A stretch of DNA of 37,106 nucleotides from Campylobacteraceae bacterium. Lineage in GTDB: Bacteria; Campylobacterota; Campylobacteria; Campylobacterales; Sulfurovaceae. The notes beneath the pieces were generated by a model. It was not told the origin of the DNA. It ran no database searches and saw nothing but the letters and a program-made list of their open reading frames with translations. A program made the position numbers and the translations under genes. Shown piece by piece: positions 15,058-32,289 of the stretch (within the stretch, counting starts at the first letter, position 1; each line of letters begins with the position of its first letter). Location: contig JALVUD010000017.1 of the NCBI GenBank assembly GCA_027035765.1, positions 1 through 37,106 on the forward strand. Direction: 5' to 3'.

Positions 15058-15176
15058 AAAATGGAAACAAGACGGAATAACGTCGATAAAATGGGGATTC
15101 CTGCAGACCGACAGGTGAGAGGAGTCGTGAAAAAGAGTGGTTTTTCTTAAAAAATCGGCTCTTATGGGACTTTGGC

Positions 15177-15182
15177 TATAAT
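15177..15182 (+). promoter_or_regulatory. tRNA-Ser promoter -10
   Basis: Perfect TATAAT 29 bases upstream of the mature tRNA 5' end; no clear -35. Confidence 0.55.
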
Positions 15183-15210
15183 GGCACTGCTTCTACAGGG
15201 CCACACCGAC

Positions 15211-15301
15211 GGAGAGTTGGCAGAGTGGTCGAATGCGGCGGCTTCGAAAGCCGTTGTCCGGGCTTCCCGGACCGGGGGTTCGAATCCCCCACTCTCCGCC
15301 A
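15211..15301 (+). tRNA. serT(CGA): tRNA-Ser(CGA)
   Basis: A complete type II tRNA: acceptor GGAGAGT/ACTCTCC, D arm, anticodon stem GCGGC/GCCGT with loop TTCGAAA (anticodon CGA, reading UCG), a long variable arm GTCCGGG/CCCGGAC typical of serine tRNAs, T arm GGGGGTTCGAATCCCCC, discriminator G and an encoded CCA at 15299-15301. It marks the left border of the accessory island. Confidence 0.96.
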
Positions 15302-15382
15302 GCTATTTTTCTTCTCATCAGCTATAAAAAAGAAATTCTGTCCTAAAATCCACATTTAATTTTCATAACAGGATGTGGTTTT

Positions 15383-15769
15383 ATGATCAAAACACTTGGA
15401 AAATTGGCATTGATCGTCGTTTTGGGAATCTCTGTTTCAGGATGTGCACAGCGTGCTTCCTCTATTGAACCGGAGTACGTCTCTCCTATCACCTACGAAA
15501 AGTACTCCTGCGGCAAGCTGCACGGAGAGATGAACAGAGTGGCTGCCAGGGTCAAGAAGATTTCGGACAATCAGGATGGATTGGCAGTGAAAGATGCTAT
15601 GGTCACCACAGTGGGAGCGCTGGTCTTTCTCCCCGCATTGGTCTTCTTGGCGGCAGGTGATGACCACAAACCCGAGATCGCCCGCCTCAAAGGAGAATAC
15701 AAGACGATCCGGGAAGTTGCACAGAAAAAGCAGTGCCGATGGGCACGGGATCTTCCCCCGCTGAAATAG
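15383..15769 (+). CDS. Small lipoprotein, unknown
   Basis: A 128-residue protein with a lipoprotein signal (LALIVVLGISVSGC, lipobox VSGC with Cys21), so it should be lipid-anchored in the cell envelope. A hydrophobic segment (VGALVFLPALVFLAAG) lies in the middle, flanked by helical stretches and two further cysteines (CGKLHGEMNR and KKQCRWARD). AGGATG precedes the ATG, and TAAAAT at 15344-15349 is a possible -10. I do not recognise the family. It lies just after the tRNA and converges on the nuclease gene. Confidence 0.8.
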   Translation: MIKTLGKLALIVVLGISVSGCAQRASSIEPEYVSPITYEKYSCGKLHGEMNRVAARVKKISDNQDGLAVKDAMVTTVGALVFLPALVFLAAGDDHKPEIARLKGEYKTIREVAQKKQCRWARDLPPLK

Positions 15770-15782
15770 AGGTGAGGCCTCT

Positions 15783-16316
15783 TTACTCTACTCTCCACTC
15801 GATCCCTACGGGCAGGTGGGCACGGTCGTAGACCTGGCAGTGGACGTCGTAAGCCACCAGAAGGCGGCGGAGTTTGCTTTTGAAATCGGCGAGGGTGAGG
15901 CGTTTTTCGTGGAGGAAGCCCGGTGCGTGCTCATCCCGTTCCAGAAAGAGGATCATCTGCACGTGGCGGGAGTGCTCAAGCGGCGGGTAGAAAGGGGCAA
16001 ACTCCGGCAAGCCCGAACGCCGGGCTCCCACGAGGGCCGAGAGGGTGCAGACGAACTTCTGGGCCACTTCGATGAGGAGGGCGCCGCTGGTCTGGCGGCG
16101 GAGGTTCTCCCGGCTGTGGCCCCGGAAGTCTTTGACCTCCATCAGGATCAGCCGTTCCCCTTTGGCAGCGAGGATATCCACCGCCTTCATCCCGTTGAGC
16201 CGATCGACCCGCTCCCGGTAGAAGCGGCTGCTGTCAAACTGGCTCACGGCCCAGTCGTCGGGGAAGGTAAAGGTCAGCTGCGTCGGCGGGTTCCCCTCGA
16301 AGATCTCGATACTCAC
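15783..16316 (-). CDS. Putative PD-(D/E)XK nuclease paired with an ATPase
   Basis: A 177-residue soluble protein whose clearest feature is a PD-(D/E)XK-like core: MKAVDILA (Asp47), a short hairpin, then LILMEVKDFRG with Glu60 and Lys62, followed by a helix rich in Arg and Gln (ENLRRQTSGALLIEVAQKF). This pattern is typical of small restriction-like nucleases. It begins four bases after the ATPase gene, so both are made from one transcript and probably act together. The family name is not known to me, and the nuclease call rests on motif spacing only. Confidence 0.6.
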   Translation of the reverse strand: MSIEIFEGNPPTQLTFTFPDDWAVSQFDSSRFYRERVDRLNGMKAVDILAAKGERLILMEVKDFRGHSRENLRRQTSGALLIEVAQKFVCTLSALVGARRSGLPEFAPFYPPLEHSRHVQMILFLERDEHAPGFLHEKRLTLADFKSKLRRLLVAYDVHCQVYDRAHLPVGIEWRVE

Positions 16317-16320
16317 GAAA

Positions 16321-17352
16321 CTACTCCATCTCCAGATAGCGGTCGGACTGCTCCAGCGACTCCTCGAGGCTCACGATGGGCTCGACCTCTTCGATCCGAT
16401 CCCCCTGGACTGCCGTGACCGTGCCCCCTTTGAGGCTGAAGGTGATGTAGTGCCGGGGCACGGAGGCGTAGCGCTGCTCCTGGGAGAGGATCTCCAGCTC
16501 CCGCAGCAGAAAGAGACTGTGGGTCGCCAGGACGATCTGCACCCCCCGCCGTGCCAGCTCCGTCAGGATCCCCGCCACCGGCCGGATGAGTTTGGGGTTG
16601 AGGTTGGTTTCGGGTTCATCCCAGAAAAGCAGGCTCCCCTCCCGGATCGTGCCGTTTTGGATCAGGCGGTAGAGGGTGGCGAGCCTGCGGATCCCTTCGG
16701 CGCTCAGATCGATCTCCAGTTTCCCGCCCCGCCGGCTCTCCAGGAGGAAGCGTCCCCCCTCCAGCCGGAGCCTCCCGCCGATGAGCTGCTCCAGACGCCG
16801 CAGCAGGGTATGAAAGGGCTCCAGCTCCGCCTCACCGAGCGGTGCAGCCTCCAGCGCCCGAGCCAGATCGAAGTAGGTGGCGTCGAAGCCTAGGTCGTGG
16901 TGCTGATAGAGCTGCGCAAAACCCGGCCAGATCGAGAGGATCTCCCGACTGGGCAGAAAGACCGCCGGGGTCGAGAGAAACGCTGCGGGACTTTTGCTCA
17001 GCTTCACATCGCTGCGGCTGCGGGCGGAGAAGCCGAAGGCGTAATCACACGCCGCCTCCCTGAAACCCACCGCCACCCGGCACTCCTGCGCCCCGTGGTG
17101 GACCAGCCGCCCCAGACTCCCGGGCCGAAAGACCCGCAGCAGCTTCCGCCCCACCATCCGCCCGAACTCTTTGGCTTCGGGACGTACCGCCGCCGCTTCA
17201 TGGCTGATGGCGGCCAGGGTATAGGCGAGCTTGAGCAGATGGCTCTTGCCCGAGGCATTCTCTCCGATAACCACATCGAGCCCGGGGGAAAAATCGAAGC
17301 GATGCTCTCCGGAGAGGATGGTGAAGTTGTTGACGCTGAGGGAACGGATCAT
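16321..17352 (-). CDS. ABC-type AAA ATPase of a two-gene defence-like unit
   Basis: The 343-residue protein is a RecF/SMC-like ATPase (AAA_15/AAA_21 group): Walker A GENASGKSHLLK near residues 30-41, an ABC-signature-like LSAEGIRRLATLYRL near 225, Walker B LLFWDEPETNLNP near 240 and an H-loop ATHSLFLLREL near 275. Insertions between Walker A and the signature are short, without a long coiled coil. The ATG at 17352 is chosen because GAGGAGG lies five bases upstream; the open frame reaches 17379. Paired with the nuclease gene after it, it resembles ATPase-nuclease anti-phage units such as Septu or OLD systems in logic, but not in detailed domain make-up. Confidence 0.85.
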   Translation of the reverse strand: MIRSLSVNNFTILSGEHRFDFSPGLDVVIGENASGKSHLLKLAYTLAAISHEAAAVRPEAKEFGRMVGRKLLRVFRPGSLGRLVHHGAQECRVAVGFREAACDYAFGFSARSRSDVKLSKSPAAFLSTPAVFLPSREILSIWPGFAQLYQHHDLGFDATYFDLARALEAAPLGEAELEPFHTLLRRLEQLIGGRLRLEGGRFLLESRRGGKLEIDLSAEGIRRLATLYRLIQNGTIREGSLLFWDEPETNLNPKLIRPVAGILTELARRGVQIVLATHSLFLLRELEILSQEQRYASVPRHYITFSLKGGTVTAVQGDRIEEVEPIVSLEESLEQSDRYLEME

Positions 17353-17362
17353 CAAGCCTCCT

Positions 17363-17402
17363 CGATCGTGGTGTGTCACATCTTTCGATTATACAACGAT
17401 CG
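17363..17402 (-). promoter_or_regulatory. Promoter of the ATPase-nuclease unit with flanking inverted repeat
   Basis: TATAAT on the minus strand (17388-17393) is bracketed by CGATCGTGG (17363-17371) and CAACGATCG (17394-17402), which are inverted copies with one mismatch. This could be an operator controlling the unit; it is suggestive only. Confidence 0.35.
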
Positions 17403-17486
17403 GCGTCTTGAAATATATTGGGGGCTTTCCCAATGGAAATGATAGAATCATTCCAAAGCATCGAGCATTTTTCAAAAAGGGTGTTT

Positions 17487-18476
17487 ATGAGCGAAATCGT
17501 TATTTACGAAGATGGAAATGTCAGACTGGAAACGGCGGTAGAGAGTGAAACCATCTGGCTGAATCAAAAACAGATGGGGGAACTTTTTGATAAAAGTACG
17601 AAGACCATCAATGAACACATAAAAAATATTTTTAAAGAAGGGGAACTTGAAAGAGATTCAACTGTCCGGAAATTCCGGATAGTTCAAACTGAAGGAAAGA
17701 GAGAGGTAGAAAGAGAGATAGATTTTTACAATTTGGATGTCATCATCTCAGTAGGCTACAGGGTCAAATCAAAGCGAGGTACACAATTTAGAATCTGGGC
17801 GACGAAAGTCCTCAAAGAGTACCTCCTCAAAGGCTACGCCCTCGATCGTGAACGTCTCCAAAAGGATAAACTCCGGGAACTGGAGCAGACCATCGCCGCC
17901 ATCAAACAGGCCGTCGAAAACCGCACCCTCAGCGACGATGAGGCCAAAGGTTTCATCGAGATCATCGGCACCTACGCCAAGAGCTGGGCGCTGCTGCAAG
18001 GCTACGACGAGCAGACTCTGCAGGAGGTGATCGCCACCAAGGAACAGCGCTTCATCCTCGACTACGACGAAGCCAAAGCCGCCATCGCCGCGCTCAAAAA
18101 GGAGCTGATGGCCAAAGGGGAGGCCACGGAGCTTTTCGGCAACGAAAAGGCGGGCGAGTTCAAAGGCAACCTGCTCAACATCTACCAGAGCTTTGGCGGT
18201 GTCGATCTGCTCCCCTCGGTAGAGCAGAAGGCGGCAAATCTCCTCTACTACATCGTCAAAGGACACCCTTTCAGCGACGGAAACAAACGCATCGGCGCCT
18301 ATCTCTTCGTGCTTTTCCTGCACAAAAACGGCATCCTCTACCGCGAAAACGGCGAAGCGAGGATCAACGACAACGCCCTGGCGGCGCTGACCCTGCTGGT
18401 GGCCACCTCGGATCCCGAGCACAAGGAGATCATTATCCGGCTCATTATGAATATGCTGGTGGATGAGGTGGGGTAG
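17487..18476 (+). CDS. RhuM-Fic/DOC fusion protein
   Basis: The 329-residue protein has an N-terminal RhuM region (about 1-145: TIWLNQKQMGELFDKSTKTI, EHIKNIFKEGEL, DFYNLDVIISVGYRVKSKRG, FRIWATKVLKEYLLKGYALD) with a KilA-N/HTH-like DNA-binding look, a helical linker, and a C-terminal Fic domain with a canonical HPFSDGNKRIGAYLF motif near 258-272. Fic domains attach AMP or other nucleotide groups to proteins. The start at 17487 matches the usual RhuM N-terminus and has AAAAGG upstream; the frame is open to 17418. The first 300 bases are AT-rich and the rest GC-rich, suggesting a fusion of segments of different origin. RhuM genes often sit in restriction loci. Confidence 0.85.
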   Translation: MSEIVIYEDGNVRLETAVESETIWLNQKQMGELFDKSTKTINEHIKNIFKEGELERDSTVRKFRIVQTEGKREVEREIDFYNLDVIISVGYRVKSKRGTQFRIWATKVLKEYLLKGYALDRERLQKDKLRELEQTIAAIKQAVENRTLSDDEAKGFIEIIGTYAKSWALLQGYDEQTLQEVIATKEQRFILDYDEAKAAIAALKKELMAKGEATELFGNEKAGEFKGNLLNIYQSFGGVDLLPSVEQKAANLLYYIVKGHPFSDGNKRIGAYLFVLFLHKNGILYRENGEARINDNALAALTLLVATSDPEHKEIIIRLIMNMLVDEVG

Positions 18477-18517
18477 TTTTGGTTGAATTTTAATGTATAA
18501 TCAAAACAATAGAGGTC

Positions 18518-18685
18518 ATGAAGAAAGAAGATGAGATGAAAAAGTGTCCGGAATTCAAGAAAAAGATTGTTACGGTAGTTATCCGCTCCCAGGCAATCGA
18601 AGGCTATAAGCAAGGCAGCCGCTCGGCTGTTACGAAGGTCAAAGCACTCAAAGAGAAATATGAGCTCAAAGTATCGTCTCGATAA
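18518..18685 (+). CDS. Class I Fic antitoxin (FicA/YhfG/VbhA type)
   Basis: A 55-residue protein beginning MKKEDEMKKCPEFKKKIVTV. It contains the Fic-inhibitory motif [S/T]xxxE[G/N] as SQAIEG (residues 24-29). In class I systems this motif sits on an antitoxin helix and its Glu blocks ATP binding by the Fic toxin. The size equals that of E. coli YhfG, and its place directly before, and overlapping by 26 bases, a Fic gene is the classic arrangement. AGAGGTC precedes the ATG. The call rests on motif, size and position. Confidence 0.8.
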   Translation: MKKEDEMKKCPEFKKKIVTVVIRSQAIEGYKQGSRSAVTKVKALKEKYELKVSSR

Positions 18686-19265
18686 TAGCTCCATCTACAT
18701 TCCCGGAACTTCCATACCCTACAACAAACTCGGCATCGAAGATTCCGAAACGCTCCATCTTCTCGAAGGGGAGCTTCTCAAAGAGGCTTATAGCATTTTC
18801 TATGACGAATTGACGGATGAGACGAAGTTCGACGAAAGCTATTTAAAATCGCTTCATCGTCGCACCTTCGAAGCTCTTTATGAATGGGCAGGTGAATATC
18901 GTCCTTTCAATATGAGCAAAGGGGAGAGCCGTTTTTGCCAGGGGGCGTATGTGGCCTCTGAATCGAAACGGATCTTCAAAGAGTTGGAAAAAGTCGGTTG
19001 GCTTCGTGAATTCAACGATCGAAATTCCGAAGAATTTGCGAAAATGATCGCCTATTTTCAGGGGGAACTGATCGCTCTTCATCCCTTTTATGAGCTCAAC
19101 GGACGGATCGTGCGACTCTTTTTTGATATGATTGCACTGTATAACGGGTATGAAGCAATCGATTACGGTAAGCCGGAGGAGTATATCAAGGCCTCTATCG
19201 CTTGCGTACAATATGCGGATACGGAAAAACTGACGGAGATTATCCGTAGGGGATTGAAACGCTGA
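18660..19265 (+). CDS. Fic family toxin (class I)
   Basis: The 201-residue protein has the Fic fold order: LHRRTFEALYEWAGEYRPFN (substrate-flap region), then KMIAYFQGELIALHPFYELN and the catalytic motif HPFYELNGRIVRLFF near 141-155. The catalytic His and the Asn-Gly-Arg phosphate-binding residues are present; a Leu stands where the usual motif has Gly (HPFx[D/E]GN). Fic enzymes AMPylate targets such as gyrase or topoisomerase IV when freed of antitoxin. The gene overlaps the antitoxin gene out of frame, so expression is translationally coupled. Confidence 0.9.
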   Translation: MSSKYRLDNSSIYIPGTSIPYNKLGIEDSETLHLLEGELLKEAYSIFYDELTDETKFDESYLKSLHRRTFEALYEWAGEYRPFNMSKGESRFCQGAYVASESKRIFKELEKVGWLREFNDRNSEEFAKMIAYFQGELIALHPFYELNGRIVRLFFDMIALYNGYEAIDYGKPEEYIKASIACVQYADTEKLTEIIRRGLKR

Positions 19266-19345
19266 TTGATGATGTTGCCATTTGTGGGTTGTATCCAGCA
19301 ATATGGGAATGTTTTTGTCTGGTGCAACCTGCAAATGAGCAGTAG

Positions 19346-19480
19346 ATCGTCGAAATCGGCGGCAGGAAAAAGAGTTTTCGTCAAATCGAGCGTGTAATGC
19401 AGAGCTTTGTGGCTGCCGACGGCATCGTCGCGGGATCGGGCAACAGGATCCCTCTATGGATGTTCGGGTTTTTGTATTGA
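19346..19480 (+). pseudogene. Possible 3' remnant of an ATPase-like gene
   Basis: The spacer 19266-19602 contains no intact gene. One frame from 19346 to the TGA at 19480 encodes 44 residues with protein-like character (IVEIGGRKKSFRQIERVMQ and, at the end, GSGNRIPLWMFGFLY). The ending resembles the C-terminus of AAA/DUF4143-type ATP-binding proteins as I remember them. There is no start codon with a ribosome site, and a TAG lies directly upstream in frame. I read it as a decayed fragment; the rest of the spacer shows no other signal before the promoter at 19568. Confidence 0.35.
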
Positions 19481-19557
19481 AAAGGTGGAGGGTAGGCTAT
19501 CGGTTGTTACCTGGGACTTTTTCTCTCCCCTCCTTCTCCTCCTCGGCGGGAATACGA

Positions 19558-19596
19558 AAGTAAGCCATTGACTTACTTGGCAAGATCGGATAAAAT
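19558..19596 (+). promoter_or_regulatory. higBA promoter with operator; predicted leaderless transcript
   Basis: TTGACT (19568-19573), a 17-base spacer and TAAAAT (19591-19596) form a strong promoter. The inverted repeat AAGTAAG-N7-CTTACTT (19558-19578) covers the -35 and is a likely antitoxin operator. The -10 ends six bases before the toxin ATG at 19603, so transcription should start at or next to the ATG, and no Shine-Dalgarno is present. Confidence 0.65.
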
Positions 19597-19602
19597 AGTC
19601 AG

Positions 19603-19917
19603 ATGGAGATAGCGGAGACGTCGATTTTCACGAAAGAGATCACCAGGCTTCTCGATGATGAGTCGTATCGGGAGCTTCAGGAGTTTTTGGCGGCACATCC
19701 GAAAAGCGGCAGTGTCATCAAGGGTTCCGGCGGTCTGCGGAAATTGCGTTGGAAATTGTCGTCCAAGGGCAAGAGAGGCGGAATCAGGACGATCTACTAT
19801 TTTTATGAAGCGGATCATCTTATTTTGATGATTTTTGTCTATGAAAAAAGTAAAAACGAAGATCTGACTCCAAAGCAGATCGAACTGCTGAGGAAAACAT
19901 TTTTGGAGGGGACATGA
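19603..19917 (+). CDS. RelE/HigB-type toxin
   Basis: A 104-residue basic protein of the RelE/ParE superfamily. Diagnostic blocks are SGSVIKGSGGLRKLRWKLSS, KGKRGGIRTIYYFYEADHLI and FVYEKSKNEDLTPKQIELL, matching ribosome-dependent mRNA interferases of the HigB branch. The toxin gene comes first and the antitoxin second, the usual HigBA order. It overlaps the antitoxin start by four bases (ATGA). The start at 19603 lies at the predicted transcription start, suggesting leaderless translation. The catalytic residues cannot be named with certainty from sequence alone. Confidence 0.9.
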   Translation: MEIAETSIFTKEITRLLDDESYRELQEFLAAHPKSGSVIKGSGGLRKLRWKLSSKGKRGGIRTIYYFYEADHLILMIFVYEKSKNEDLTPKQIELLRKTFLEGT

Positions 19918-20204
19918 TGGATAAGGAACTGTTCAACGCTCTACTGGAAAGTACGGCGGAAGCCAAAGAGATTTTGCAAAAAAAGAGAAAAGCGAGTCGA
20001 ACGTTTTATATCGAAGAACCGGACGCCAAAGCTATCCGCACTCAGCTGAAGCTGACACAAAATGAGTTTGCGGCACTGCTCAATATCAGCGTCAATACGC
20101 TTCGTAACTGGGAGCAGGGCAGAAGGGTTCCGGAAGGACCGGCAAAAGTATTGCTCAACGTAGCTAAAGAGTACCCGGATGTGCTTTTGAAGCTTGGGGC
20201 TTGA
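19914..20204 (+). CDS. HigA-type helix-turn-helix antitoxin
   Basis: The 96-residue protein has a C-terminal XRE-type HTH (AIRTQLKLTQNEFAALLNIS then VNTLRNWEQGRRVPEGPA, about 42-80) and an N-terminal helical part (AKEILQKKRKASRTFYIEEP) that probably wraps the toxin. As in other HigA proteins it should neutralise the toxin and repress the shared promoter at 19558-19596. The start is ATG at 19914 (or the adjacent ATG at 19917), overlapping the toxin stop. Complete and intact. Confidence 0.9.
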   Translation: MMDKELFNALLESTAEAKEILQKKRKASRTFYIEEPDAKAIRTQLKLTQNEFAALLNISVNTLRNWEQGRRVPEGPAKVLLNVAKEYPDVLLKLGA

Positions 20205-20315
20205 GTATTTCACACTCGTTCCCACCATCCCAGTCTGTAAACACATAAAGCAAGTTATCGAACATGCCACCTGTGTGACATAATGTTGTCAAATCCATAT
20301 GCTACAATACCGATG

Positions 20316-20327
20316 TCTCAATTGAGA
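20316..20327. promoter_or_regulatory. 12-base palindrome TCTCAATTGAGA behind a -10-like box
   Basis: A perfect palindrome eight bases after TACAAT (20303-20308). It may be an operator for the gene at 20457. No properly spaced -35 is visible. Confidence 0.35.
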
Positions 20328-20383
20328 GATACTCACTGGCCTGCCGAAAAAAATGTGTCGTCGGCAGTCACCGTAACTTAGGA

Positions 20384-20432
20384 CAATAAAACCTTCACCG
20401 TTTCGATTCCCGAAACTTCGACCGTTTTATTG
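20384..20432 (+). ncRNA. Structured leader hairpin before the 20457 gene
   Basis: A 49-base element with a 9-bp outer stem, CAATAAAAC/GTTTTATTG, and an inner hairpin GTTTCG/CGAAAC with a five-base loop, ending 24 bases before the ATG and just before AGGAGG. A separate inverted repeat, CTGCCGA/TCGGCAG, lies at 20341-20367. The transcript leader is thus heavily structured; it could be an attenuator, an autoregulatory site or a cis RNA element. No known riboswitch class is recognised. Confidence 0.45.
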
Positions 20433-20456
20433 CCTCTATTCACCAGGAGGTAAATT

Positions 20457-21107
20457 ATGAGAACTTATGACACCCTTGTACGCTTCGTCAAAGAAACCGA
20501 TCGCAAAGAGCTGCTGCGCTCACTGGGCTATCGCGATCTCCGAAAGGGAGAGGAGAGTTTGAGTGCCTTTTTGGGCGCAGGATCGCTGCGGAATTGGCTG
20601 GCGAAAGGACATTACGATTTCGTCCACAGCTCCGAAAGCTTCGCCAAAACGCTCGCCTCGCTCGCCGGAGTCGATCCCGGCGTGATCGACCGGATCGTCG
20701 AAGCGGAGGCCGAACGCCGTGCCACACTATCGCAATTGCAGACCCCCTACATCTTCGTCGATACCCGTTTCCGAAGAAAGAACGAACCGATCTTCGCCCT
20801 GGCGTTCATGGAGTCCAAACGCCATATTTCGTTGGATAAAGAGACGGTCTACGACCAGGGTCTGGAAGCGACCCTCCAAGAGGTGGGCCGGATAGTCCGC
20901 GAACACTACCGCGACACCGGCGGCGAACTGAAAGTGTGGGGGAAGATCCACGAATACCGCTACCACCACCTCGACGGCAGGACGTTTCGCTTCGATACCG
21001 AGGGGCGTCTGGTCGAAGAGCTTTCCCGTAATCTGGACGAAGGGGGAGCCGTTTTGAGCGTCGGGGGGAGGGAGATTCCACCTGAGATGCTCGCCCCCGA
21101 TGGGTAG
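20457..21107 (+). CDS. Unknown 216-residue protein upstream of the restriction locus
   Basis: A soluble, charged protein with a strong CAGGAGG ribosome site. The N-terminal 75 residues are helical and could form a small DNA-binding or regulatory domain (GSLRNWLAKGHYDFVHSSES, FAKTLASLAGVDPGVIDRIV); the middle is beta-rich (TPYIFVDTRFRRKNEPIFAL) and the end Gly-rich. I recognise no family. It stands between the HigBA pair and the helicase gene, 87 bases before the latter, behind an unusual structured leader. A role in the island's regulation is possible but unproven. Confidence 0.75.
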   Translation: MRTYDTLVRFVKETDRKELLRSLGYRDLRKGEESLSAFLGAGSLRNWLAKGHYDFVHSSESFAKTLASLAGVDPGVIDRIVEAEAERRATLSQLQTPYIFVDTRFRRKNEPIFALAFMESKRHISLDKETVYDQGLEATLQEVGRIVREHYRDTGGELKVWGKIHEYRYHHLDGRTFRFDTEGRLVEELSRNLDEGGAVLSVGGREIPPEMLAPDG

Positions 21108-21193
21108 GGATGCGTCTTTCGGATACAAGGATTAATGGTAAAGCCCCGACGCATTGACCTTCTTAGTCGCCGGTTCTGATTTATTCCAGATTT

Positions 21194-24100
21194 ATGGCAT
21201 CATATCAAAGCAACATATGGGCGGAAAGAGGGGAAGATCGGAGTATGCAGGTTATCGACAATGTCAGTTCGCTGTTGGGTGACGATCTAAAAAACACTCT
21301 CCGACCCGGCGACAGGCTCAAAATCGCCGCCGCTACCTTTTCCATCTACGCCTTCGAAGCCTTGAAAAAAGAACTATCGAGTGTCGATGCGTTCCAGTTT
21401 ATTTTCACCTCTCCTACCTTTGTCCCGGACAAAGCCCTGGATGCCATCAAGAAAGAGCGCCGCGAGTTCTACATCCCAAAAAACGAAAGGGAAAGAGGCT
21501 TTTACGGAACGGAATTCGAGATTCAGCTCAGAAACAAGCTGACCCAGCGTGCCATCGCCAGGGAGTGTGCCGACTGGATCCGCAGAAAGGCTACCTTTCG
21601 ATCCAACAAAACTTCGGCTTCCATGCAGTCTTTCGCATGCGTACAAAGTCCTGATCGTACCGTCGTTTACATGCCTCTCAACGGATTCACCGCCGTCGAT
21701 CTCGGATATCAGAAAGGAGACGCGCTCAGCAATATCACGACCCGTTTCGATGATCCGTTGGCTACTCAGTCGTTTCTGAACACTTTCGACCAGATCTGGA
21801 ACGATCGGGAGAGACTCGAAGATGTCACCGACGCCATCATCGAACACATCAGCACCGTTTACCGGGAGAACGCCCCCGAACGCATCTACTTCCTGATGCT
21901 CTACAACATCTTCAAAGCGTTCCTCGAAGACATCAACGAAGATGTGCTGCCCAACGACCTGACGGGATTCAAAGAGACGCTGGTCTGGAAAAAACTCTAC
22001 AACTTCCAAAAAGACGCCGCCGTGGGGCTCATCAACAAGCTCGAAACCTTCAACGGCTGCATCCTGGCCGACAGTGTGGGGCTTGGCAAAACCTTCACGG
22101 CTCTGGCCGTCATCAAATACTACGAACTACGCAACAAATCGGTCCTGGTGCTCTGCCCCAAGAAGCTGGCCGACAACTGGCTCACCTACAACACCAACCT
22201 GGTTACCAACATCTTCGCCAAAGATCGTTTCAACTACGACGTACTCAATCACACCGACCTCTCCAGAACGCGGGGCCATTCCCACGGCATAGACCTCTCC
22301 CGCGTCAACTGGGGCAACTACGACCTGGTGGTCATCGACGAATCCCACAATTTCCGAAACGCCGCCGCCTACAAGGACAAAGAGACCCGTTACCAGAAAC
22401 TGATGAACAAAATCATCAAAGCGGGCGTCAAGACCAAAGTCCTCATGCTCTCGGCCACCCCCGTCAACAACCGTTTCGCCGACCTTCGCAACCAACTGGC
22501 CTTAGCCTACGAAGGTGAATCGGAGCAACTACAAAAAAAGCTGGGCACCACCCAAAGCATCGAGGAGATATTCCGCAGAGCCCAGGCTGCTTTCAACGCC
22601 TGGTCCAAACTCCCGCCTGAAAAGCGCACGGCCAAAGCAATTCTGGATATGCTCGATTTCGATTTCTTCAAACTGCTCGACAACGTCACCATCGCACGAT
22701 CCCGCAAGCATATCCAGACCTTCTACGACACCACCGATATCGGAACCTTCCCCAAAAGACTCAAGCCCAAAAACTTCCGTCCGCCGTTGAGTGAGCTCTC
22801 CCGCCTTCCGGACTACGATGAGATCTACCGGACGCTCAACTCCATGACCCTCTCCATCTATGCGCCAATGAATTTCGTTTTTCCCAGTCGTCTGCACAAA
22901 TACGAAGAGGCTTACGACACCGAAGTGCAAGAGGGCAAAGGGCGCTTTCGCCAGCGTGACCGTGAGCGCAGTCTTCAGGCACTGATGACCACCAACCTCC
23001 TCAAACGCCTGGAAAGCTCCGTCGAAGCCTTCCGTATCACCCTGAACAAACTCAAACAAAACCATGCCGAGATACTGACGCAGATCAGCCGTTTCGAGCG
23101 GGGCGATACGAGTGTGAAAATTTCGGATGTGCCTGACAAAGCGGTCACTGAAGATATCGAAGAGGATGAAGAGGCATTCATCGGCGGCAAAGTGCGTATC
23201 GCCCTGGAGGATATGGATATCCGCTCCTGGAAAGAGGATCTCAAAAACGATCTTTTCATTGTCGATCGTCTTCTGATCGAAATGGATCGGATCACCCCCG
23301 ATGACGACGCCAAGCTCCAAGACCTGATAGAACACGCCAATAGCAAAATCGAAAACCCCATCAACTCCGGCAACAAAAAGCTCCTCATCTTCACCGCCTT
23401 CGCCGACACCGCCCACTATCTCTACGAACAGCTGGCCCCCCATTTCCTGACCAAACACGGTCTGCACACGGCGCTCGTCACCGGACAGGGAAATCCCAAG
23501 ACCACCGTTCACAAAAAACACTATGATTTTCAAAGCGTCCTGACCCTCTTCGCCCCCAAGGCCAAAGAGAAAGCCCTGGTCATGCCAAACAACAACGACG
23601 AAATCGACATCCTCATCGCCACCGACTGCATCAGCGAGGGGCAGAACCTGCAGGACTGCGACTATCTCATCAACTACGACATCCACTGGAACCCGGTGCG
23701 CATCATCCAGCGTTTCGGGCGCATCGACCGTATCGGCTCCCCCAACGCCCAAATCCAGCTGGTCAACTACTGGCCCGACATTACCCTGGACGAGTACATC
23801 AACCTCAAAGAGCGGGTGGAAAATCGTATGACCATCGTCGACATCACCGCCACGGGCGACGACAACGTGCTCAGCGCCAAAGCCAACGACATCAGCTACC
23901 GAAAAGAGCAGCTCAAAAGGCTCCAGGAGGAGGTCATCGACCTCGAAGAGCTCAAGACCGGCATCTCCATCACCGACCTGGGGCTCAACGAGTTCCGGGT
24001 GGACCTGCTGGGCTATATCAAAGAGCACGATCTCGACAACCTCCCAAACGGCCTGCACACCGTCGTCCCGGCAGACAGAGACAAAGGGCTGGAGCCCGGC

Positions 24101-24502
24101 GTCATCTTCACCCTCTACAACCGCAACCACGGCATCGAAATCGACCGCCAAAACCGCCTGCACCCTTATTATCTGGTCTACATCGCCAACGACGGCCACA
24201 TCGTCGCCGACCACACCCAGGCCAAACGGCTGCTCGATTTGGCCCGCGCCGCCTGCAAGGGCCGCAGCCAGCCTATAGAAAAAGCCTACAAAGCCTTCAA
24301 TGAAGCCACCAAAGACGGGCGGGATATGCACTTTTACTCCGAACTGCTGGACCAAGCTATCGCCTCGATGGTCCAAAAACAGGAAGAGAGCGACATCGAT
24401 TCGCTCTTCAGTGAAGGGCGCACTACGGCACTGACCGCCAAAATCGAAGGGCTGGACGATTTCGAGCTGATTAGCTTCATCGTCGTGATGGAGGTGGATT
24501 AG
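21194..24502 (+). CDS. SNF2-type helicase with PLD-like N-terminal domain
   Basis: A 1102-residue DNA translocase. The N-terminal part (to about 150) resembles the PLD-like domain of related helicases (LKIAAATFSIYAFEALKKEL) but lacks an HKD catalytic motif. Helicase motifs: Walker A ILADSVGLGKTFTALAVI near 297, DESH box LVVIDESHNFRN near 380, SATPVNNR near 418 and, in the second RecA-like domain, IATDCISEGQNLQDCDYLIN and motif VI QRFGRIDRIGS near 838. The start at 21194 has no ribosome site; an ATG at 21245 (MQVIDNVSS) after GGGGAAGATCGGAG is equally likely. The stop overlaps the next start by one base (TAGTG). It probably supplies a remodelling or translocation activity to the restriction locus. 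Confidence 0.9.
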   Translation: MASYQSNIWAERGEDRSMQVIDNVSSLLGDDLKNTLRPGDRLKIAAATFSIYAFEALKKELSSVDAFQFIFTSPTFVPDKALDAIKKERREFYIPKNERERGFYGTEFEIQLRNKLTQRAIARECADWIRRKATFRSNKTSASMQSFACVQSPDRTVVYMPLNGFTAVDLGYQKGDALSNITTRFDDPLATQSFLNTFDQIWNDRERLEDVTDAIIEHISTVYRENAPERIYFLMLYNIFKAFLEDINEDVLPNDLTGFKETLVWKKLYNFQKDAAVGLINKLETFNGCILADSVGLGKTFTALAVIKYYELRNKSVLVLCPKKLADNWLTYNTNLVTNIFAKDRFNYDVLNHTDLSRTRGHSHGIDLSRVNWGNYDLVVIDESHNFRNAAAYKDKETRYQKLMNKIIKAGVKTKVLMLSATPVNNRFADLRNQLALAYEGESEQLQKKLGTTQSIEEIFRRAQAAFNAWSKLPPEKRTAKAILDMLDFDFFKLLDNVTIARSRKHIQTFYDTTDIGTFPKRLKPKNFRPPLSELSRLPDYDEIYRTLNSMTLSIYAPMNFVFPSRLHKYEEAYDTEVQEGKGRFRQRDRERSLQALMTTNLLKRLESSVEAFRITLNKLKQNHAEILTQISRFERGDTSVKISDVPDKAVTEDIEEDEEAFIGGKVRIALEDMDIRSWKEDLKNDLFIVDRLLIEMDRITPDDDAKLQDLIEHANSKIENPINSGNKKLLIFTAFADTAHYLYEQLAPHFLTKHGLHTALVTGQGNPKTTVHKKHYDFQSVLTLFAPKAKEKALVMPNNNDEIDILIATDCISEGQNLQDCDYLINYDIHWNPVRIIQRFGRIDRIGSPNAQIQLVNYWPDITLDEYINLKERVENRMTIVDITATGDDNVLSAKANDISYRKEQLKRLQEEVIDLEELKTGISITDLGLNEFRVDLLGYIKEHDLDNLPNGLHTVVPADRDKGLEPGVIFTLYNRNHGIEIDRQNRLHPYYLVYIANDGHIVADHTQAKRLLDLARAACKGRSQPIEKAYKAFNEATKDGRDMHFYSELLDQAIASMVQKQEESDIDSLFSEGRTTALTAKIEGLDDFELISFIVVMEVD

Positions 24503-25194
24503 TGCGCTACGACTTCCCGCCCGCCACCCGTTTTGGCAGAACGATTCCCAAGACCAAATTCTACGAACACGCCGCGATAGAGGGGAAACTCAAGCGCAAA
24601 TTCATCGACCAAATCGAAAAAATCGTCTGGAGCCACAAACTGGCCGAAGAGACGATGAACCTCCCATCTTCCCCCGAAGTCCCAGAAATCGAAGTTTTCG
24701 ACATCTACCTCAAAGGCGACCATCTCGACGACGCGGTGCTAAAGACCATCGACAAAGCCATCCCCAAGCCGATACTCTTTTACCTCCACGACACTGGGGG
24801 CCGCACCAAGCTTAAAACCGCCTACAAACGCCCGAGTGAGAGCGGCGGCAAAGGGTGGGTCATCGAAAACTACTTTCAAAGCGATTGGATGGATGAAGAC
24901 GCGCTGCCGCAGCCTCTACCCACGGCTTTGGATTTGCAAAAACTCTACGCCGCCATCATCGAAGCCCTGATGCCCCGAGACATCGCCGCATCCGACGTCG
25001 AAGGATTGCAAGAGCGGGTGGAGCGGCTCAAAAAAATCGAAGCCAAAGAGCGGGAATACGCCCGGCTCAAAGCCAAACGCGACAGAGAGAAACAGTTCAA
25101 TAAAAAGGTGGAGCTAAATGAAAAACTGCACCGATTGAAGCAGGAGATAATTGAATTAAAAAGAGAGGGTACAGATGAAAATTGCACAGTTTAA
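24502..25194 (+). CDS. DUF4391 domain protein
   Basis: A 230-residue protein with GTG start at 24502, overlapping the helicase stop by one base. The DUF4391 pattern is recognisable: MRYDFPPATRFGRTIPKTKF, IEKIVWSHKLAEETMNLP, EIEVFDIYLKG and ILFYLHDTGGRTKLKTAYKR. The C-terminal 60 residues are a charged coiled coil (VERLKKIEAKEREYARLK onward), likely for protein contact. DUF4391 genes often lie next to SNF2-like helicases in restriction loci; no biochemical function is known to me. It overlaps the following endonuclease gene by 20 bases. Confidence 0.85.
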   Translation: MRYDFPPATRFGRTIPKTKFYEHAAIEGKLKRKFIDQIEKIVWSHKLAEETMNLPSSPEVPEIEVFDIYLKGDHLDDAVLKTIDKAIPKPILFYLHDTGGRTKLKTAYKRPSESGGKGWVIENYFQSDWMDEDALPQPLPTALDLQKLYAAIIEALMPRDIAASDVEGLQERVERLKKIEAKEREYARLKAKRDREKQFNKKVELNEKLHRLKQEIIELKREGTDENCTV

Positions 25195-26197
25195 AGGTTA
25201 TTTATTAGAAGAGGCCTTGGCATACCTAATTCGAACCAGTGGCTATTCTTTAATAAATTCACCTTCGAGTCATGACCCAGATTTGGAAATCAAAGGAAAT
25301 GGACTCAATTTACGTGGGAGGGGAGCATATCATCAAATCGATGTAATCGCAGAGTTGAATTGGATTCCCGCATTCAATTATCCCATACGATTACTTGTTG
25401 AAGCAAAATTCCGTGATGGTAAAACAGGTATTGATGTCATACGTCAAGAAGTAGGGATTTTGTCTGATGTAAATGAAAACTATTTTATTCCAACCGATTC
25501 GACTGCAAAAGCAAGATATCGTTATGTGTCGGCGGTATTCTCCACTTCTGGCTTCAGTGAACCGGCAGTGGATATGGCTATTGCCCATCAAATCCAGATT
25601 GCTGATTTAGGGATAGAAGAATATAATGATTTAAAACGGATTATCAATGATGCGGCAGAGGCCATATTCGGTGATGCGGAAGAGATTAGCAAAGAGGAGG
25701 GTAAGCGTCTTAGAAAACAATTTAGGAATAGCCTTTTTGGATTTCACAATGATGAAGAAACTAATGAGAATATCTTGGAATTAAGCCGAAATATAAAAGA
25801 TGAATATCGTGAGCTTTTTATTGGTATGTCTGTAGGTGGGCACATGCTTCTACTCAAAGCAGACAATCCAGAGAACTTCGTTAGATATATAAAAGAACAC
25901 GGAAGTCATGATATTGTAATTCATTGGAGAGACATTGATAATGGAAAAAGATGGGAAATACGTCCAGCGATAGATAGAGAGAGTTACACTTTGGCTTTTG
26001 TATTACCGTCTAAACTGCATCGCTATATTTTCGAAATTGCGGAGAATCGATACACAGAGGCAATTAATCAAAAAGAGGTCCATTTCTCAAAAATAACCGT
26101 TACTTACTACGATAAAGACGAGGATAGGGAATATATAATTAATTTAAAATTCAATAAAGATAATTTTGAATTAGCGCAAAGGAATGAAAATGGATAG
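25175..26197 (+). CDS. PD-(D/E)XK restriction endonuclease-like protein
   Basis: A 340-residue protein with an Mrr-like core at the N-terminus: an acidic helix (LLEEALAYLIRTSGY), then YHQIDVIAE with Asp56 and IRLLVEAKFRDGKTGIDVIR with Glu76 and Lys78, fitting D...ExK nuclease chemistry. The remainder (about 120-340) is of unknown fold. The gene is markedly more AT-rich than its GC-rich neighbours, suggesting a separate origin or a swapped cassette. It overlaps the genes on both sides (20 bases upstream, 14 downstream), so it is fully embedded in the operon. Confidence 0.75.
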   Translation: MKIAQFKGYLLEEALAYLIRTSGYSLINSPSSHDPDLEIKGNGLNLRGRGAYHQIDVIAELNWIPAFNYPIRLLVEAKFRDGKTGIDVIRQEVGILSDVNENYFIPTDSTAKARYRYVSAVFSTSGFSEPAVDMAIAHQIQIADLGIEEYNDLKRIINDAAEAIFGDAEEISKEEGKRLRKQFRNSLFGFHNDEETNENILELSRNIKDEYRELFIGMSVGGHMLLLKADNPENFVRYIKEHGSHDIVIHWRDIDNGKRWEIRPAIDRESYTLAFVLPSKLHRYIFEIAENRYTEAINQKEVHFSKITVTYYDKDEDREYIINLKFNKDNFELAQRNENG

Positions 26198-28112
26198 GCT
26201 TGACCTACAAACCCCTGACTTCACCGAAGAACACATCCACAAACTGGCGGAGCTTTTCCCAAACTGCGTGACGGAAACGGCGGATGAAAAGGGCCACATA
26301 AAAAAAGCGATAGATTTTGATTTGCTCAAACAAGAGCTCTCCGCCTACCTCGTCGAGGGGCCCAAAGAGCGCTATCGGCTCGACTGGCCGGGCAAGCGGG
26401 CCTCCTTGCTCAAGGCCAACACCCCCATCACCAAAACCCTGCGCCCCGCACGCGAAGAGAGCGTGAACTTCGACACCACCCAAAACCTCTACATCGAAGG
26501 CGACAACCTCGAAGCCCTCAAACTCCTGCAAGAGGCGTACCTGGGCAAGGTCAAGATGATATACATCGACCCGCCCTACAACACGGGCAAAGATTTTGTG
26601 TACAAAGACAACTTTGCAAGGAGCCGCGAAGAGGAGTTGATGGAGAGCGGGCAGGTTGATGAAGAGGGCAATCGTCTGGTGCAAAACCTGGAGAGCAACG
26701 GGCGCTTTCACAGCGATTGGCTGAGTATGATGTATCCGAGACTCAGGCTGGCGCGGAACCTGCTGCGAGATGACGGGGTGATTTTTATCTCGATAGATGA
26801 CAATGAAGTGCACAATCTGCGGAAGATGTGTGATGAAGTATTTGGGGAGGGGAATTATATTGCAGAATTTATTTGGGAAAAAACATTCAGGCCGTCTAAT
26901 TTTGGCAAAACAACCCGAAAAAATACCGAGTATGTTATAAGCTATTCTAAATCTAATCCTATCGAATTGAAAGGAAGTCTTGAAGATTCAAAAGGTGATT
27001 TCTCTTTAACAAAAAAATTACACAATACACATACATTAAAATGTCCTTCGAACTATGTGCATGTGAACTTTCAGGATGGAATCTATAAAAAAGGGAAATA
27101 TGGCGACGGTTACGAGTTATTAGATGACATTTATGTTAAGAACGGAAAAGTTAAAAATGAATTTAGAATAAAAATTAAGCAATCAATATGGAGTCAAAAA
27201 CATTTAAATAATGAAATTGATAGAGGCGTGTATCTTGTTTTAAAGAATGAGAAAACAATGGCTCTTTATGCAAGAAAAGTCTATAAAAAAAATGAACTGA
27301 AGCCTACAACACTTCTTCCAAATGACATTGTTGGCGATGTTTTAGAGGCAAATAAAGAGATTAATAATTTATTTAAAACAAACTTATTCGATTATCCAAA
27401 GCCTTCTTCTCTACCAAAATATTTAATGACAACATGTACGGAAGATGAAGACATCATCCTCGACTTCTTCTCCGGCTCCGCCACCACCGCCCATGCCGTG
27501 ATGCAGCTCAACGCCGAAGACGGCGGTAATCGCCGTTTCATTATGGTGCAGCTGCCCGAACCCACCGACCCCAAAAGCGAAGCCTACAAAGCGGGCTACA
27601 CAACCATCGCCGACATCGGCAAAGAGCGCATCCGCCGCGCGGGAAAAAAGATAAAAGAGGAAAACAAAGAGAAAGAAGGCATCGAAAAACTTGACATCGG
27701 TTTTCGGGTGCTCAAAGTCGACAGCTCCAACATGAAAGAGATCTACTTCACCCCTGACGAAGTGAGCAAGGAGAGCCTTTTTGAAACCGTCGACCACATC
27801 AAAGAAGATAGAACTCCCGAAGATTTGCTCTTTGGGGTGCTGGTGGACTGGGGTGTGGATTTGAGCTTGCCCATTCGCACCGAAGAGATAGAGGGCAAAA
27901 CGGTCTACTTCGTCGGACACGGCGACCTGGTCGCCTGCTTCGAAGAGGATATCGACGAAAACTTCGTCAAAACCCTGGCCAAAAAGCTGGCCGACGAGGA
28001 TGTGCTGCGCGTGGTCTTCAAGGAAAGCGGCTTTGAAGACGACAATATCAAAATCAACACCGAACAAATCTTCAAACAGCTTGCCCCGGCGGTGGAAGTG
28101 AGGGTGGTCTAG
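26184..28112 (+). CDS. mod: Type III restriction-modification DNA methyltransferase (Mod)
   Basis: A 642-residue beta-class N6-adenine/N4-cytosine methyltransferase. Catalytic motif IV (MIYIDPPYNTGKDF, near 128) comes before the SAM-binding FxG-type motif I (ILDFFSGSATTAHAVMQL, near 428), the order of type III Mod proteins. Between them (about 215-415) lies the target recognition domain, whose DNA (about 26840-27440) is strongly AT-rich against GC-rich flanks, a sign of specificity-domain exchange. The first 90 residues and the C-terminal 150 are Mod-like accessory regions. With Res (29253) it should recognise an asymmetric site methylated on one strand. Confidence 0.93.
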   Translation: MKMDRLDLQTPDFTEEHIHKLAELFPNCVTETADEKGHIKKAIDFDLLKQELSAYLVEGPKERYRLDWPGKRASLLKANTPITKTLRPAREESVNFDTTQNLYIEGDNLEALKLLQEAYLGKVKMIYIDPPYNTGKDFVYKDNFARSREEELMESGQVDEEGNRLVQNLESNGRFHSDWLSMMYPRLRLARNLLRDDGVIFISIDDNEVHNLRKMCDEVFGEGNYIAEFIWEKTFRPSNFGKTTRKNTEYVISYSKSNPIELKGSLEDSKGDFSLTKKLHNTHTLKCPSNYVHVNFQDGIYKKGKYGDGYELLDDIYVKNGKVKNEFRIKIKQSIWSQKHLNNEIDRGVYLVLKNEKTMALYARKVYKKNELKPTTLLPNDIVGDVLEANKEINNLFKTNLFDYPKPSSLPKYLMTTCTEDEDIILDFFSGSATTAHAVMQLNAEDGGNRRFIMVQLPEPTDPKSEAYKAGYTTIADIGKERIRRAGKKIKEENKEKEGIEKLDIGFRVLKVDSSNMKEIYFTPDEVSKESLFETVDHIKEDRTPEDLLFGVLVDWGVDLSLPIRTEEIEGKTVYFVGHGDLVACFEEDIDENFVKTLAKKLADEDVLRVVFKESGFEDDNIKINTEQIFKQLAPAVEVRVV

Positions 28113-28115
28113 CGA

Positions 28116-29150
28116 ATGTGCCTATATAACCACTCGCCCAAAGACATTGAATCTTTTTTGCAAGAAATTTATGGCAGAGGGCTACATCGAAGTCGTGTGC
28201 TAAACGATGCCGATATCAAAAAAATCCTGCACACGATCGGCATCTTTCGATTCAAAGGCTATCTATATGCTTTTCGAAATGAGTTTGACCGGCACACTAT
28301 CGACGAAATATTGACACTCTACTATTTCGATAAATACCTGACCCGATATGTGATGGAATTTACCGCCACGATAGAGACTTTGCTCAAAACCAGAGTCGTG
28401 GAGCTTTGCTATAAATGGACCAATAATCCATTTTTTTATCTGATTCAGGAGAATCACAAGTTTTCAAACTTTCGGATCAATCAACCCACTCTGGAAAACT
28501 GGAAATCCCGAGAAAAGCGTGACGGTGAAGATGATGAGTGCTATACGCATTATTGCCTCTACTACAAAGAAAAGTATCTTTTTGAGAAAAATAAGCAGAT
28601 TTATTTATTGGGCGTGACTCTGATAGAGATAAAAGAAGATGTTAACTACCCTCCGTTTCATTACCTTGTTGAAAGTGCTACGCTTGGGGCATTAATTTCA
28701 ATGATAAAAAGCATAAAGATCGGAAAATATGATTTACTACACGGCGTTTCGAGAGAGTTCGGGATCAACCCGAAGCTTTTTAGACCTTATCTTGATCGAC
28801 TCAATGAAGTGCGCAACCGTGCCGCACATAGAGAAAGACTCTTCAACCGAGGATACCGAAGCGTCCGGGCTTTCAAACGATACCATCGGTTGCGCAAATC
28901 GATCGAACCGCATAGTTTTGCCGACGTCTATCTCTATTTTTACTTCATGCTTGGCAGGGTCGATCGGTATGAGAGTTTTGATGCATTCTTTCGACAAGAG
29001 ATCGAACCATTATTTGTCGAATATCGAAACGACAGGTTTATTGCACAGGACGCAAATGGTCTCAATCGGCAAATGGGCGAAACGGAGTTTGTGAGAATGA
29101 AAAGTTTTATTTTGAAGGGAATGGGAATAAATGAAAAAAGCCGGGCATGA
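28116..29150 (+). CDS. Abi_2 (AbiD/AbiF) HEPN-family protein
   Basis: A 344-residue abortive-infection protein inserted between mod and res. Abi_2 signs are an N-terminal RSRVLNDADIKKILHTIGIF and FKGYLYAFR, YYFDKYLTRYVMEFTATIET in the middle, PPFHYLVESATLGALISMIK and the HEPN ribonuclease motif RNxxxH in LNEVRNRAAHRERLFNR near 229-240. HEPN proteins of this type are predicted RNases that stop growth of infected cells. It begins three bases after the mod stop, so it is in the same operon. The end of the coding region forms one arm of a stem with the region downstream. Confidence 0.85.
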   Translation: MCLYNHSPKDIESFLQEIYGRGLHRSRVLNDADIKKILHTIGIFRFKGYLYAFRNEFDRHTIDEILTLYYFDKYLTRYVMEFTATIETLLKTRVVELCYKWTNNPFFYLIQENHKFSNFRINQPTLENWKSREKRDGEDDECYTHYCLYYKEKYLFEKNKQIYLLGVTLIEIKEDVNYPPFHYLVESATLGALISMIKSIKIGKYDLLHGVSREFGINPKLFRPYLDRLNEVRNRAAHRERLFNRGYRSVRAFKRYHRLRKSIEPHSFADVYLYFYFMLGRVDRYESFDAFFRQEIEPLFVEYRNDRFIAQDANGLNRQMGETEFVRMKSFILKGMGINEKSRA

Positions 29151-29185
29151 CAAGGTGACTCACGCCCCTTGCCAGAGGACCCGGC
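29140..29185 (+). ncRNA. Stem-loop RNA candidate after the Abi_2 gene
   Basis: Outer stem GCCGGG (29140-29145)/CCCGGC (29180-29185) encloses an inner stem CAAGG (29151-29155)/CCTTG (29167-29171) with an 11-base loop. The first arm is in the last codons of the Abi_2 gene. It is not followed by a T run, so it is not a typical terminator. Structured RNAs near Abi_2-type genes have been described as I recall; a match here is unverified. Confidence 0.45.
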
Positions 29186-29202
29186 GTTTGTGACGGTTGC
29201 AT

Positions 29203-29227
29203 TATAACGAGATACGTTTAACGTATC
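29203..29227 (+). promoter_or_regulatory. res promoter region with 17-base palindrome
   Basis: TATAAC (29203-29208) is a -10-like box, followed at once by the perfect palindrome GATACGTTTAACGTATC (29211-29227), 25 bases before the res ATG. It looks like an operator over the transcription start or a 5' hairpin, giving res control separate from the mod operon. Confidence 0.5.
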
Positions 29228-29252
29228 CTGAAACTAAATCAGAGGATAGCCG

Positions 29253-32200: not shown

Positions 32201-32285
32201 ATTCTTCGAAAACATTGCGACGGACAAGGTAAAGTACGATGTCGTCGACAGTTTCGATCGGTTGATGACGCTGGTTCGGGAATAG
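29253..32285 (+). CDS. res: Type III restriction endonuclease subunit (Res)
   Basis: The 1010-residue subunit has a DEAD-type helicase: Q-like region at the start, Walker A METGTGKTYVYTKTI near 98, ILILDEPQKMEG near 227, SATHKTKHNR near 254, an insert domain, LREGWDNPNIFVICTL near 535 and motif VI RRQEVGRGMRLCVNKHG near 553. The C-terminal nuclease shows the PD-(D/E)XK motif in GDYNPDWAIAFEEGS and HIYFVAETKGSLSS (Asp about 940, Glu-Thr-Lys about 960). Length and motifs are normal, so it appears functional. AGAGGATAG precedes the ATG. A patch at about 29820-30000 is AT-richer than the rest. It works with the Mod protein encoded upstream. Confidence 0.95.
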   Translation: MKIRFKHQQYQADAVAAVVDCFEGQPYNAGFKYTIDPGRAAGQQTMEYDDEGIRNYPLRLSESALLHNIQRVQRNQNLPIDPNLVKTPICNVNLDVEMETGTGKTYVYTKTIFELHKRYGWSKFIIVVPSIAIREGVAKSFEMTREHFLEDYGIQPRVFIYDSKSPQNIKSFSTDGGIQVMIINVQAFNAEGEGRSEASRRIYRELDEFESRRPIDLIKANHPILILDEPQKMEGAKTVKKLKEFNPLMILRYSATHKTKHNRVYRLDAIDAYNQKLVKKITVKGIEAKHLGGTSPYIYLQDIEISKERPPIARLELEVRQKSGIKRIVRKVEKGRNLYELSNELEQYRGITVTDLDAVSMELSDGTKLQIGDVVGDVNEALLRRIQIREAIRSHLNKEKELFYKGIKVLSLFFIDEVAKYRYYDEEGEAQSGEYAEIFEEEYKAAIEDFGSLFGPEYHDYLRKIDASKTHNGYFSIDKKGRLTDPSVKGRGEEKGLSDDVNAYDLILKDKERLLSFDEPTRFIFSHSALREGWDNPNIFVICTLKHSDSTVARRQEVGRGMRLCVNKHGERMDDPSTVHEINVLSIVANESYKDFAKGLQKEIAESLTDRPKTADVDYFKGKVLPFEEEKVEVNDKQARQIVRYLLKNDYVDDDGKITETYIQARENGNLAPLPEDLQPYSEAILLLVDSVYSDVKLPAIENEFSRKENPLNEENLKRKEFLALWENINQKAVYAVHFDTKELVVKAVGALDRELKVPEITYRVVEGEMESDVDGEEIRNGEGFRVREDRDETTLKSIHSEVTYDLIGKLAEETQLTRKTIGAILRKISDRTFSQFKKNPEIFIREAARIINEQKAATVIEHLSYDKREEKHRLEEIFVPQNSEYKRLQEVQKHVYQYLVTDSGKEKEFAEALDSATEVVVYAKLPSAFFIPTPVGDYNPDWAIAFEEGSVKHIYFVAETKGSLSSMQLRKIEEMKIECARKFFENIATDKVKYDVVDSFDRLMTLVRE

Positions 32286-32289
32286 GCCC

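Follow-up and report, generated by a model that had tools for sequence, protein, structure and literature searches.

The two adjacent genes described here are already catalogued as HEC-02 and hence are not new. They lie in the window, a 37,106-nucleotide stretch of contig JALVUD010000017.1 from a Campylobacteraceae bacterium with an assembly (GCA_027035765.1) of 2.03 Mb. We consider it likely that the pair is the HEC-02 candidate anti-phage system, in which an ATPase acting as sensor and switch would bind and gate a small PD-(D/E)XK nuclease of predicted activity. The pair is probably both real and mobile, and it is probably a phage-defence unit. The positions of the genes and of the surrounding features are listed in Table 1.

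An earlier note on this DNA had described an ATPase and a smaller partner four bases apart, and both open reading frames were found as described, each on the minus strand. If translation began at an in-frame GTG 27 nt before the ATPase start, that protein would have 352 aa. The ATPase carries a Walker A motif, GENASGKS (K36), a Walker B motif, LLFWDEPE (D245/E246), and H278, and the D...ExK residues of the small protein were located at Asp47, Glu60 and Lys62 as claimed. A GGAG is present within the 3' end of the ATPase gene, upstream of the GTG of the small gene, suggesting that translation of the small gene may be coupled to that of the ATPase gene; in most relatives, at loci from the ATPase-first search described below, the two genes overlap by 4 nt. 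A promoter with a possible operator had also been proposed. The TATAAT was found between the arms of a 10-nt inverted repeat, but the operator is weak, as an equal repeat was obtained in 43 of 1000 dinucleotide shuffles. As judged from sequence, both ORFs are real genes, far beyond chance, because relatives of both proteins adjoin each other in several phyla.

Table 1. Features of the window in and around the HEC-02 pair.
Feature	Position	Strand	Description	Basis
ATPase gene	16321-17352	-	ATG start, 343 aa; HEC-02 ATPase component, predicted sensor/switch	ORF, PADLOC, Pfam, model
Small protein gene	15783-16316	-	GTG start, 177 aa; HEC-02 nuclease component (predicted), D47/E60/K62	ORF, PADLOC, motif, model
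Intergenic gap	16317-16320	-	4 nt, ATPase stop to small-gene start	Sequence
Promoter region	17353-17417	-	TATAAT near 17390; AGGAGG before ATPase ATG	Sequence
Inverted repeat	17363-17372/17393-17402		10 nt, one mismatch; flanks TATAAT	Sequence
Variable island	15062-32300	.	Holds the pair	blastn of window vs L074 and L075
tRNA-Ser(CGA)	15211-15301	+	Beside the pair here and in G400 (L002/L078)	
Lipoprotein-like ORF	15383-15769	+	128 aa; between tRNA-Ser and pair; absent at G400 site	
RhuM-Fic fusion	17418-18476	+	Divergent from pair	PADLOC PDC-S23, 451 bits
Separate Fic protein	18660-19265	+	VbhT-like in NCBIfam, below cut-off	PADLOC PDC-S04; NCBIfam
Restriction and helicase genes	21194-32285	+	SNF2 helicase (C3a139-like), DUF4391, unassigned ORF, type III Mod, Abi_2, type III Res-like protein	
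340-aa ORF	25175-26197	+	36.6% G+C; between DUF4391 and Mod	

The suggestion that the genes may form an unnamed two-gene system did not stand, since both are HEC-02 in PADLOC-DB 2.0.0 (2023), where the A and B labels of HEC-02 are inconsistent among its models. The ATPase matched PDLC04146, PDLC04213 and PDLC04214 with E-values of 6.2e-102, 1.6e-78 and 2.2e-62 (339, 263 and 209 bits), respectively, and more weakly AriA (1e-20), AbiLi (9e-18), PD-T4-4_A (4e-15), GajA (4e-9) and PtuA (3e-7). The small protein matched HEC-02 models only (PDLC04145, 5.2e-23; PDLC04228, 5.4e-21; others weaker), and the genes show the HEC-02 layout of two adjacent genes on the same strand. In Pfam, the ATPase was assigned to AAA_21/AAA_15, and the small protein reached 21.3 bits to DUF6661, below the 27-bit cut-off. 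No match to the small protein was found in NCBIfam or PHROGs, and no significant match in a PDB sequence search. When the seven small proteins of the query alignment were compared with Pfam, weak nuclease matches, to NERD in two (best 0.024) and pPIWI_RE_REase in one (0.012), were below significance. In full-text literature searches, the sole match to 'HEC-02' was an unrelated chemistry paper, and no mention of 'DUF6661' was found. HEC-02 reportedly stems from a 2024 preprint by Payne et al., as an Hma-embedded candidate. The window pair agrees with HEC-02 in that both genes match its models, the adjacent genes have the sizes of their HEC-02 counterparts and relatives occur inside Hma operons; no tested feature distinguishes it from HEC-02, and the window pair lies outside Hma, beside a tRNA gene. 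A passage of PMC12988326 gives HEC as Hma-embedded candidate and mentions antiviral activity of several HECs, including HEC-06; HEC-02 is not named there. A passage of PMC12255303 cites the preprint from which the HECs come.

Recurrence of the pairing was examined from both sides. In a small-first search, the alignment of seven small proteins was run against 398 genomes of a phylum other than Campylobacterota, that of genome G449, which is itself a source of the query and one of the 12 genomes matched. Five of the 12 matches were at E < 1e-20, and an ATPase gene was found directly upstream on the same strand in 12 of 12. In an ATPase-first search with the ATPase alignment (E<=1e-30), 34 matches were spread over 28 of 200 genomes; loci were read for 30 of them and four matches were left out. 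At 27 of these 30 loci, an intact small gene carrying the motif lies next to the ATPase gene. Ten of the 30 are rows of the query alignment with a partner already known; among the other 20, the small gene was intact in 17, truncated in one (L054) and not present within 200 bases in two (L056 and L070). Six of the 27 partners (L062-L065, L067 and L068) diverge too far to be detected with the profile at 1e-3; they were identified by eye through a motif of the type E-A-[KR]-S or E-V-E-A-K-S, and PADLOC also recognised L063 and L065. Each locus held at least 60 other ORFs, of which the ones close to the ATPase were assessed. Recurrent pairing was thus borne out in both directions.

The pair was found to be rare in Campylobacterota, in 3 of 397 genomes by protein search and in 5 of 100 relatives by profile search, and relatives within the window's own genus carry it. 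Both genes are also present on plasmids of Pseudanabaena and Paracoccus. On a Sulfuricystis plasmid (L015:4336-6029), a HEC-02 ATPase without nuclease partner was observed beside an apparent C-terminal remnant of an Hma methylase, likened by eye to the Hma gene of L004; this arrangement is possibly a decayed Hma locus. Among IMG/VR contigs, L014 holds the ATPase with an adjacent small gene (L014:4001-5571), and L013, which has the same flank, ends shortly after the ATPase. Lysozyme-like and antirepressor-like ORFs, so labelled by eye, were seen near the pair in L014. The L014 pair is probably carried by a phage; in phage records, no match at E 1e-3 was found to the small protein of this viral-contig pair.

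In the window, the pair lies in a variable island. The flanking genes are approximately 0.3 kb apart in G403, which is without the island (in L075, window position 14868 is followed by 32318), so that the whole 15.0-32.3 kb stretch is taken as the island; in G401 the island is partly absent, and homology from window position 15061 resumes at 20400 after approximately 0.35 kb. The island of toxin and restriction genes that the earlier note had reported, with the pair at its tRNA-proximal end, was found, with tRNA-Ser, RhuM-Fic, Fic, RelE/NadS-like genes, SNF2 helicase, Mod/Res and Abi_2 all present and the Abi_2 gene between type III mod and res. The 340-aa ORF gave no convincing family match in Pfam, PADLOC or NCBIfam. 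G400 (L002/L078), a second genome of the genus, also has the pair next to this tRNA-Ser, with 98% identity across 752 bases, and lacks the 128-aa ORF there. The small gene of G399 (L003/L079) shows 96.5% identity across 480 bases; its neighbours differ, and homology stops at the stop codon. Both are MAGs in which the contigs end inside the pair, and assembly error is therefore possible. No stretch of 11 or more bases from the tRNA 3' end recurs exactly elsewhere in the window, and a duplicated attachment site was therefore rejected. The G+C content of the pair (63-65%) is like that of the core genome, compared to 37-58% for other island genes, which counts against the explanation that we prefer. 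A housekeeping DNA-repair pair of the RecF/SbcCD kind would account for the RecF/SMC-like ATPase core; given the patchy occurrence in 3 of 397 genomes and 5 of 100 relatives, the presence on plasmids and viral contigs and the absence of the island from a sister genome, we regard this as very improbable.

The assignment of the small protein as a PD-(D/E)XK-type nuclease, also made in the earlier note, was supported by several observations. In an alignment of 16 small proteins, D47 and E60 were invariant and K62 was present in 15; one relative (L033) has T at position 62, a point against the assignment. Among 30 aligned pairs, which include distant ones, position 47 holds D in 25 cases and E in the other 5, E60 and K87 were found in all 30, and position 62 was K in 28, R in one and T in one; hence D/E47, E60 and K/R62 occurred in 30, 30 and 29 of 30, respectively. 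In the AF2 model (pLDDT 90.2), D47 immediately precedes a strand, E60/K62 close the following strand, and helices come after it. This order, with D before a strand and ExK ending the next, is usual for the PD-(D/E)XK fold. Foldseek returned nothing at E<=0.001 for this model. The best VIA-align match was Upx (Z 7.3, 3.8 A, 134 residues), followed by AF1548 (Z 6.7, 3.5 A, 111 residues), FokI (Z 6.4, 4.2 A, 127 residues; chain residues 414-555), BspD6I (6.0), BstEII (5.8), Cdn1 (5.7) and a Pyrococcus repair endonuclease (5.5), with Card1 and Can2 in further rows and HamA and SduA lower down. Leaving aside 4coi, 9wuf and 1y88, the top 20 rows are presumably nucleases of the PD-(D/E)XK fold; 4coi is a ribonucleotide reductase. 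Since all of these Z scores are below 8, the case for the predicted fold lies in motif, model and structural neighbours taken together and not in Z alone. A non-nuclease family was looked for, and the top structural matches were mostly PD-(D/E)XK nucleases.

The AF2 model of the ATPase (pLDDT 87.8) was matched by VIA-align to SMC heads, retron-associated PtuA, Rad50 and Septu PtuA at Z 16.5-19.8, with an SMC head at Z 19.8 (3.7 A, 272 residues) and retron-associated PtuA at Z 18.9. The Walker motifs, the AAA_21 match and this model point to an ABC-type ATPase, in keeping with what had been proposed, with an SMC/Rad50/PtuA-like head, and its 343 aa leave no space for a long coiled coil. Three known systems were considered and set aside. 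The Septu partner is an HNH nuclease, and Septu (PtuAB) shares with the window pair an SMC-like ATPase head of similar fold; the window small protein is in contrast of predicted PD-(D/E)XK type, shows no HNH or PtuB match and matches HEC-02 models only. For Gabija, which combines GajA, with its TOPRIM, and the helicase GajB, the ATPase had no Pfam TOPRIM match and the partner is no helicase; the earlier view that the pair is neither Septu nor Gabija thus agrees with Pfam and PADLOC. For PARIS, no match to its TOPRIM nuclease partner AriB was found for the small protein. PD-T4-4 is likewise an ATPase and nuclease operon, organised like WonAB according to a passage of PMC12137116; the window ATPase, however, scored 54 bits to PD-T4-4_A compared to 339 to HEC-02, and the small protein had no PD-T4-4_B match in PADLOC.

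Of the 12 small-first loci, at least four have the pair within or next to Hma or BREX genes. It lies between HmaB and HmaC in L081, adjoins HmaB in L085 and lies between BrxC and PglX in L086. In L080 it adjoins HmaB, and its other neighbour, of 950 aa, is most likely the second HmaC counted among the neighbours. In BREX loci and in the related Hma loci, according to a passage of PMC12839542, OLD-ABC ATPases are paired with nucleases of the PD-(D/E)XK, HNH or PIN kind. As a control, the neighbours of the pair in the 12 small-first loci, 48 proteins in all, were compared with 48 proteins from seven control regions; twelve regions had been sought, four contigs were too short and one 1.8-kb stretch was dropped. 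Matches of the neighbours included Hma, BREX, Dpd and HEC-01 families among the 25 commonest families listed, a comparison that is not a formal enrichment test. RhuM-type matches and a set of type III restriction genes were also present in the control regions, and defence neighbours alone are therefore weak evidence.

Beyond the catalogue entry, the description as unnamed was at odds with a published wider class, 'OLD-ABC ATPase + novel REase', which has an experimentally studied relative, WonAB. This operon class is said to go back to Krishnan et al. 2020. Likened through the descriptions in the papers, WonAB and this class share with the window pair a prophage- or island-borne two-gene operon of an ABC ATPase and a small PD-(D/E)XK nuclease, the latter predicted in the window. 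In contrast, WonB is smaller (16.1 kDa, with K71), and E300 and H333 of WonA stand approximately 55 residues later than E246 and H278 of the window ATPase. Passages of PMC12137116 report that both genes of WonAB, from the Vibrio WASA-1 prophage, were needed for protection, that ATPase-motif mutants and the nuclease mutant K71A lost protection, that WonB was toxic only alongside active WonA, and that genomic DNA stayed intact, translation stopped and infection was aborted. WonAB is described there as closely related to the 'OLD-ABC ATPase + novel REase' class and similar to PD-T4-4, relationships that are repeated in a passage of PMC12409358.

Because the anatomy is the same as that of WonAB, a sensor ATPase licensing a nuclease was adopted as the working model. 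By analogy, the window pair would work like WonAB, with an active nuclease, and the ATPase would most likely sense infection and license the nuclease. The compact ABC ATPase, probably a head-engaging dimer, would serve as sensor and ATP-driven switch, binding and gating the nuclease encoded alongside, which in the uninfected cell would either be inactive or be licensed solely within the complex. A signal induced by the phage would change the nucleotide state of the ATPase and release nuclease activity, and phage production would then stop, probably at the cost of the cell. The WonAB result favours RNA as the nuclease substrate, and DNA is possible. Under DNA restriction, the ATPase would load onto or scan invading DNA like Rad50/SMC and the nuclease would cut it directly with no cell death. 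The SMC/Rad50-like head, the structural matches to the DNA endonucleases FokI, BspD6I and BstEII and the residence of pairs inside restriction-like Hma and BREX operons are consistent with this; however, WonAB leaves genomic DNA intact and inhibits translation, and no methylase constantly neighbours the pair, and we judge restriction to be unlikely. A toxin-antitoxin unit, with the small nuclease as toxin, the ATPase as its neutraliser and defence as a by-product, is more doubtful still. The tight coupling of the two genes and their location among Fic and RelE/NadS-like genes would suit it, but the WonAB nuclease is non-toxic without its ATPase, which rules out simple sequestration there.

The gated-nuclease model can be taken further at the C-terminal end of the ATPase, whose sequence is conserved (15 of 15 have D337) and which has pLDDT < 50 at residues 326-331 and 341-343 in the monomer model. 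The pairwise distance matrices of the two proteins were correlated (rho 0.82; none of 2000 permutations as high, best 0.33) over 30 pairs, a selection made up of the window, 17 loci from earlier searches and 12 of the 30 ATPase-first loci. With tail and nuclease classes that were defined after the sequences were seen, a Q-x-[DE]-R tail was found with a 'KD[YF]R-like' nuclease in 12 of the 30 pairs, a [YF]-D-x-E tail with a 'K[DN]P' nuclease in 10 and another tail with an 'E-KS' nuclease in 5; in the remaining 3 the tail was unclassed, and the nuclease was 'K[DN]P' in one and unclassed in two. Both the tracking and the distance correlation are explained by common descent of two genes that are not separated; docking would likewise account for them. 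The tracking of tail and nuclease may mark a putative docking site. We tentatively propose, as a possibility short of an even chance, that HEC-02 pairs make up a modular sensor-effector family: the ATPase tail would dock the nuclease, and the nuclease would cut tRNA or rRNA, stopping translation.

These findings give the catalogued but little-described HEC-02 independent support as a real co-inherited two-gene unit, in Campylobacterota and several other phyla. They also link it by anatomy to the experimentally studied logic of WonAB, and they identify concrete residues and a segment of the ATPase tail as targets to test.
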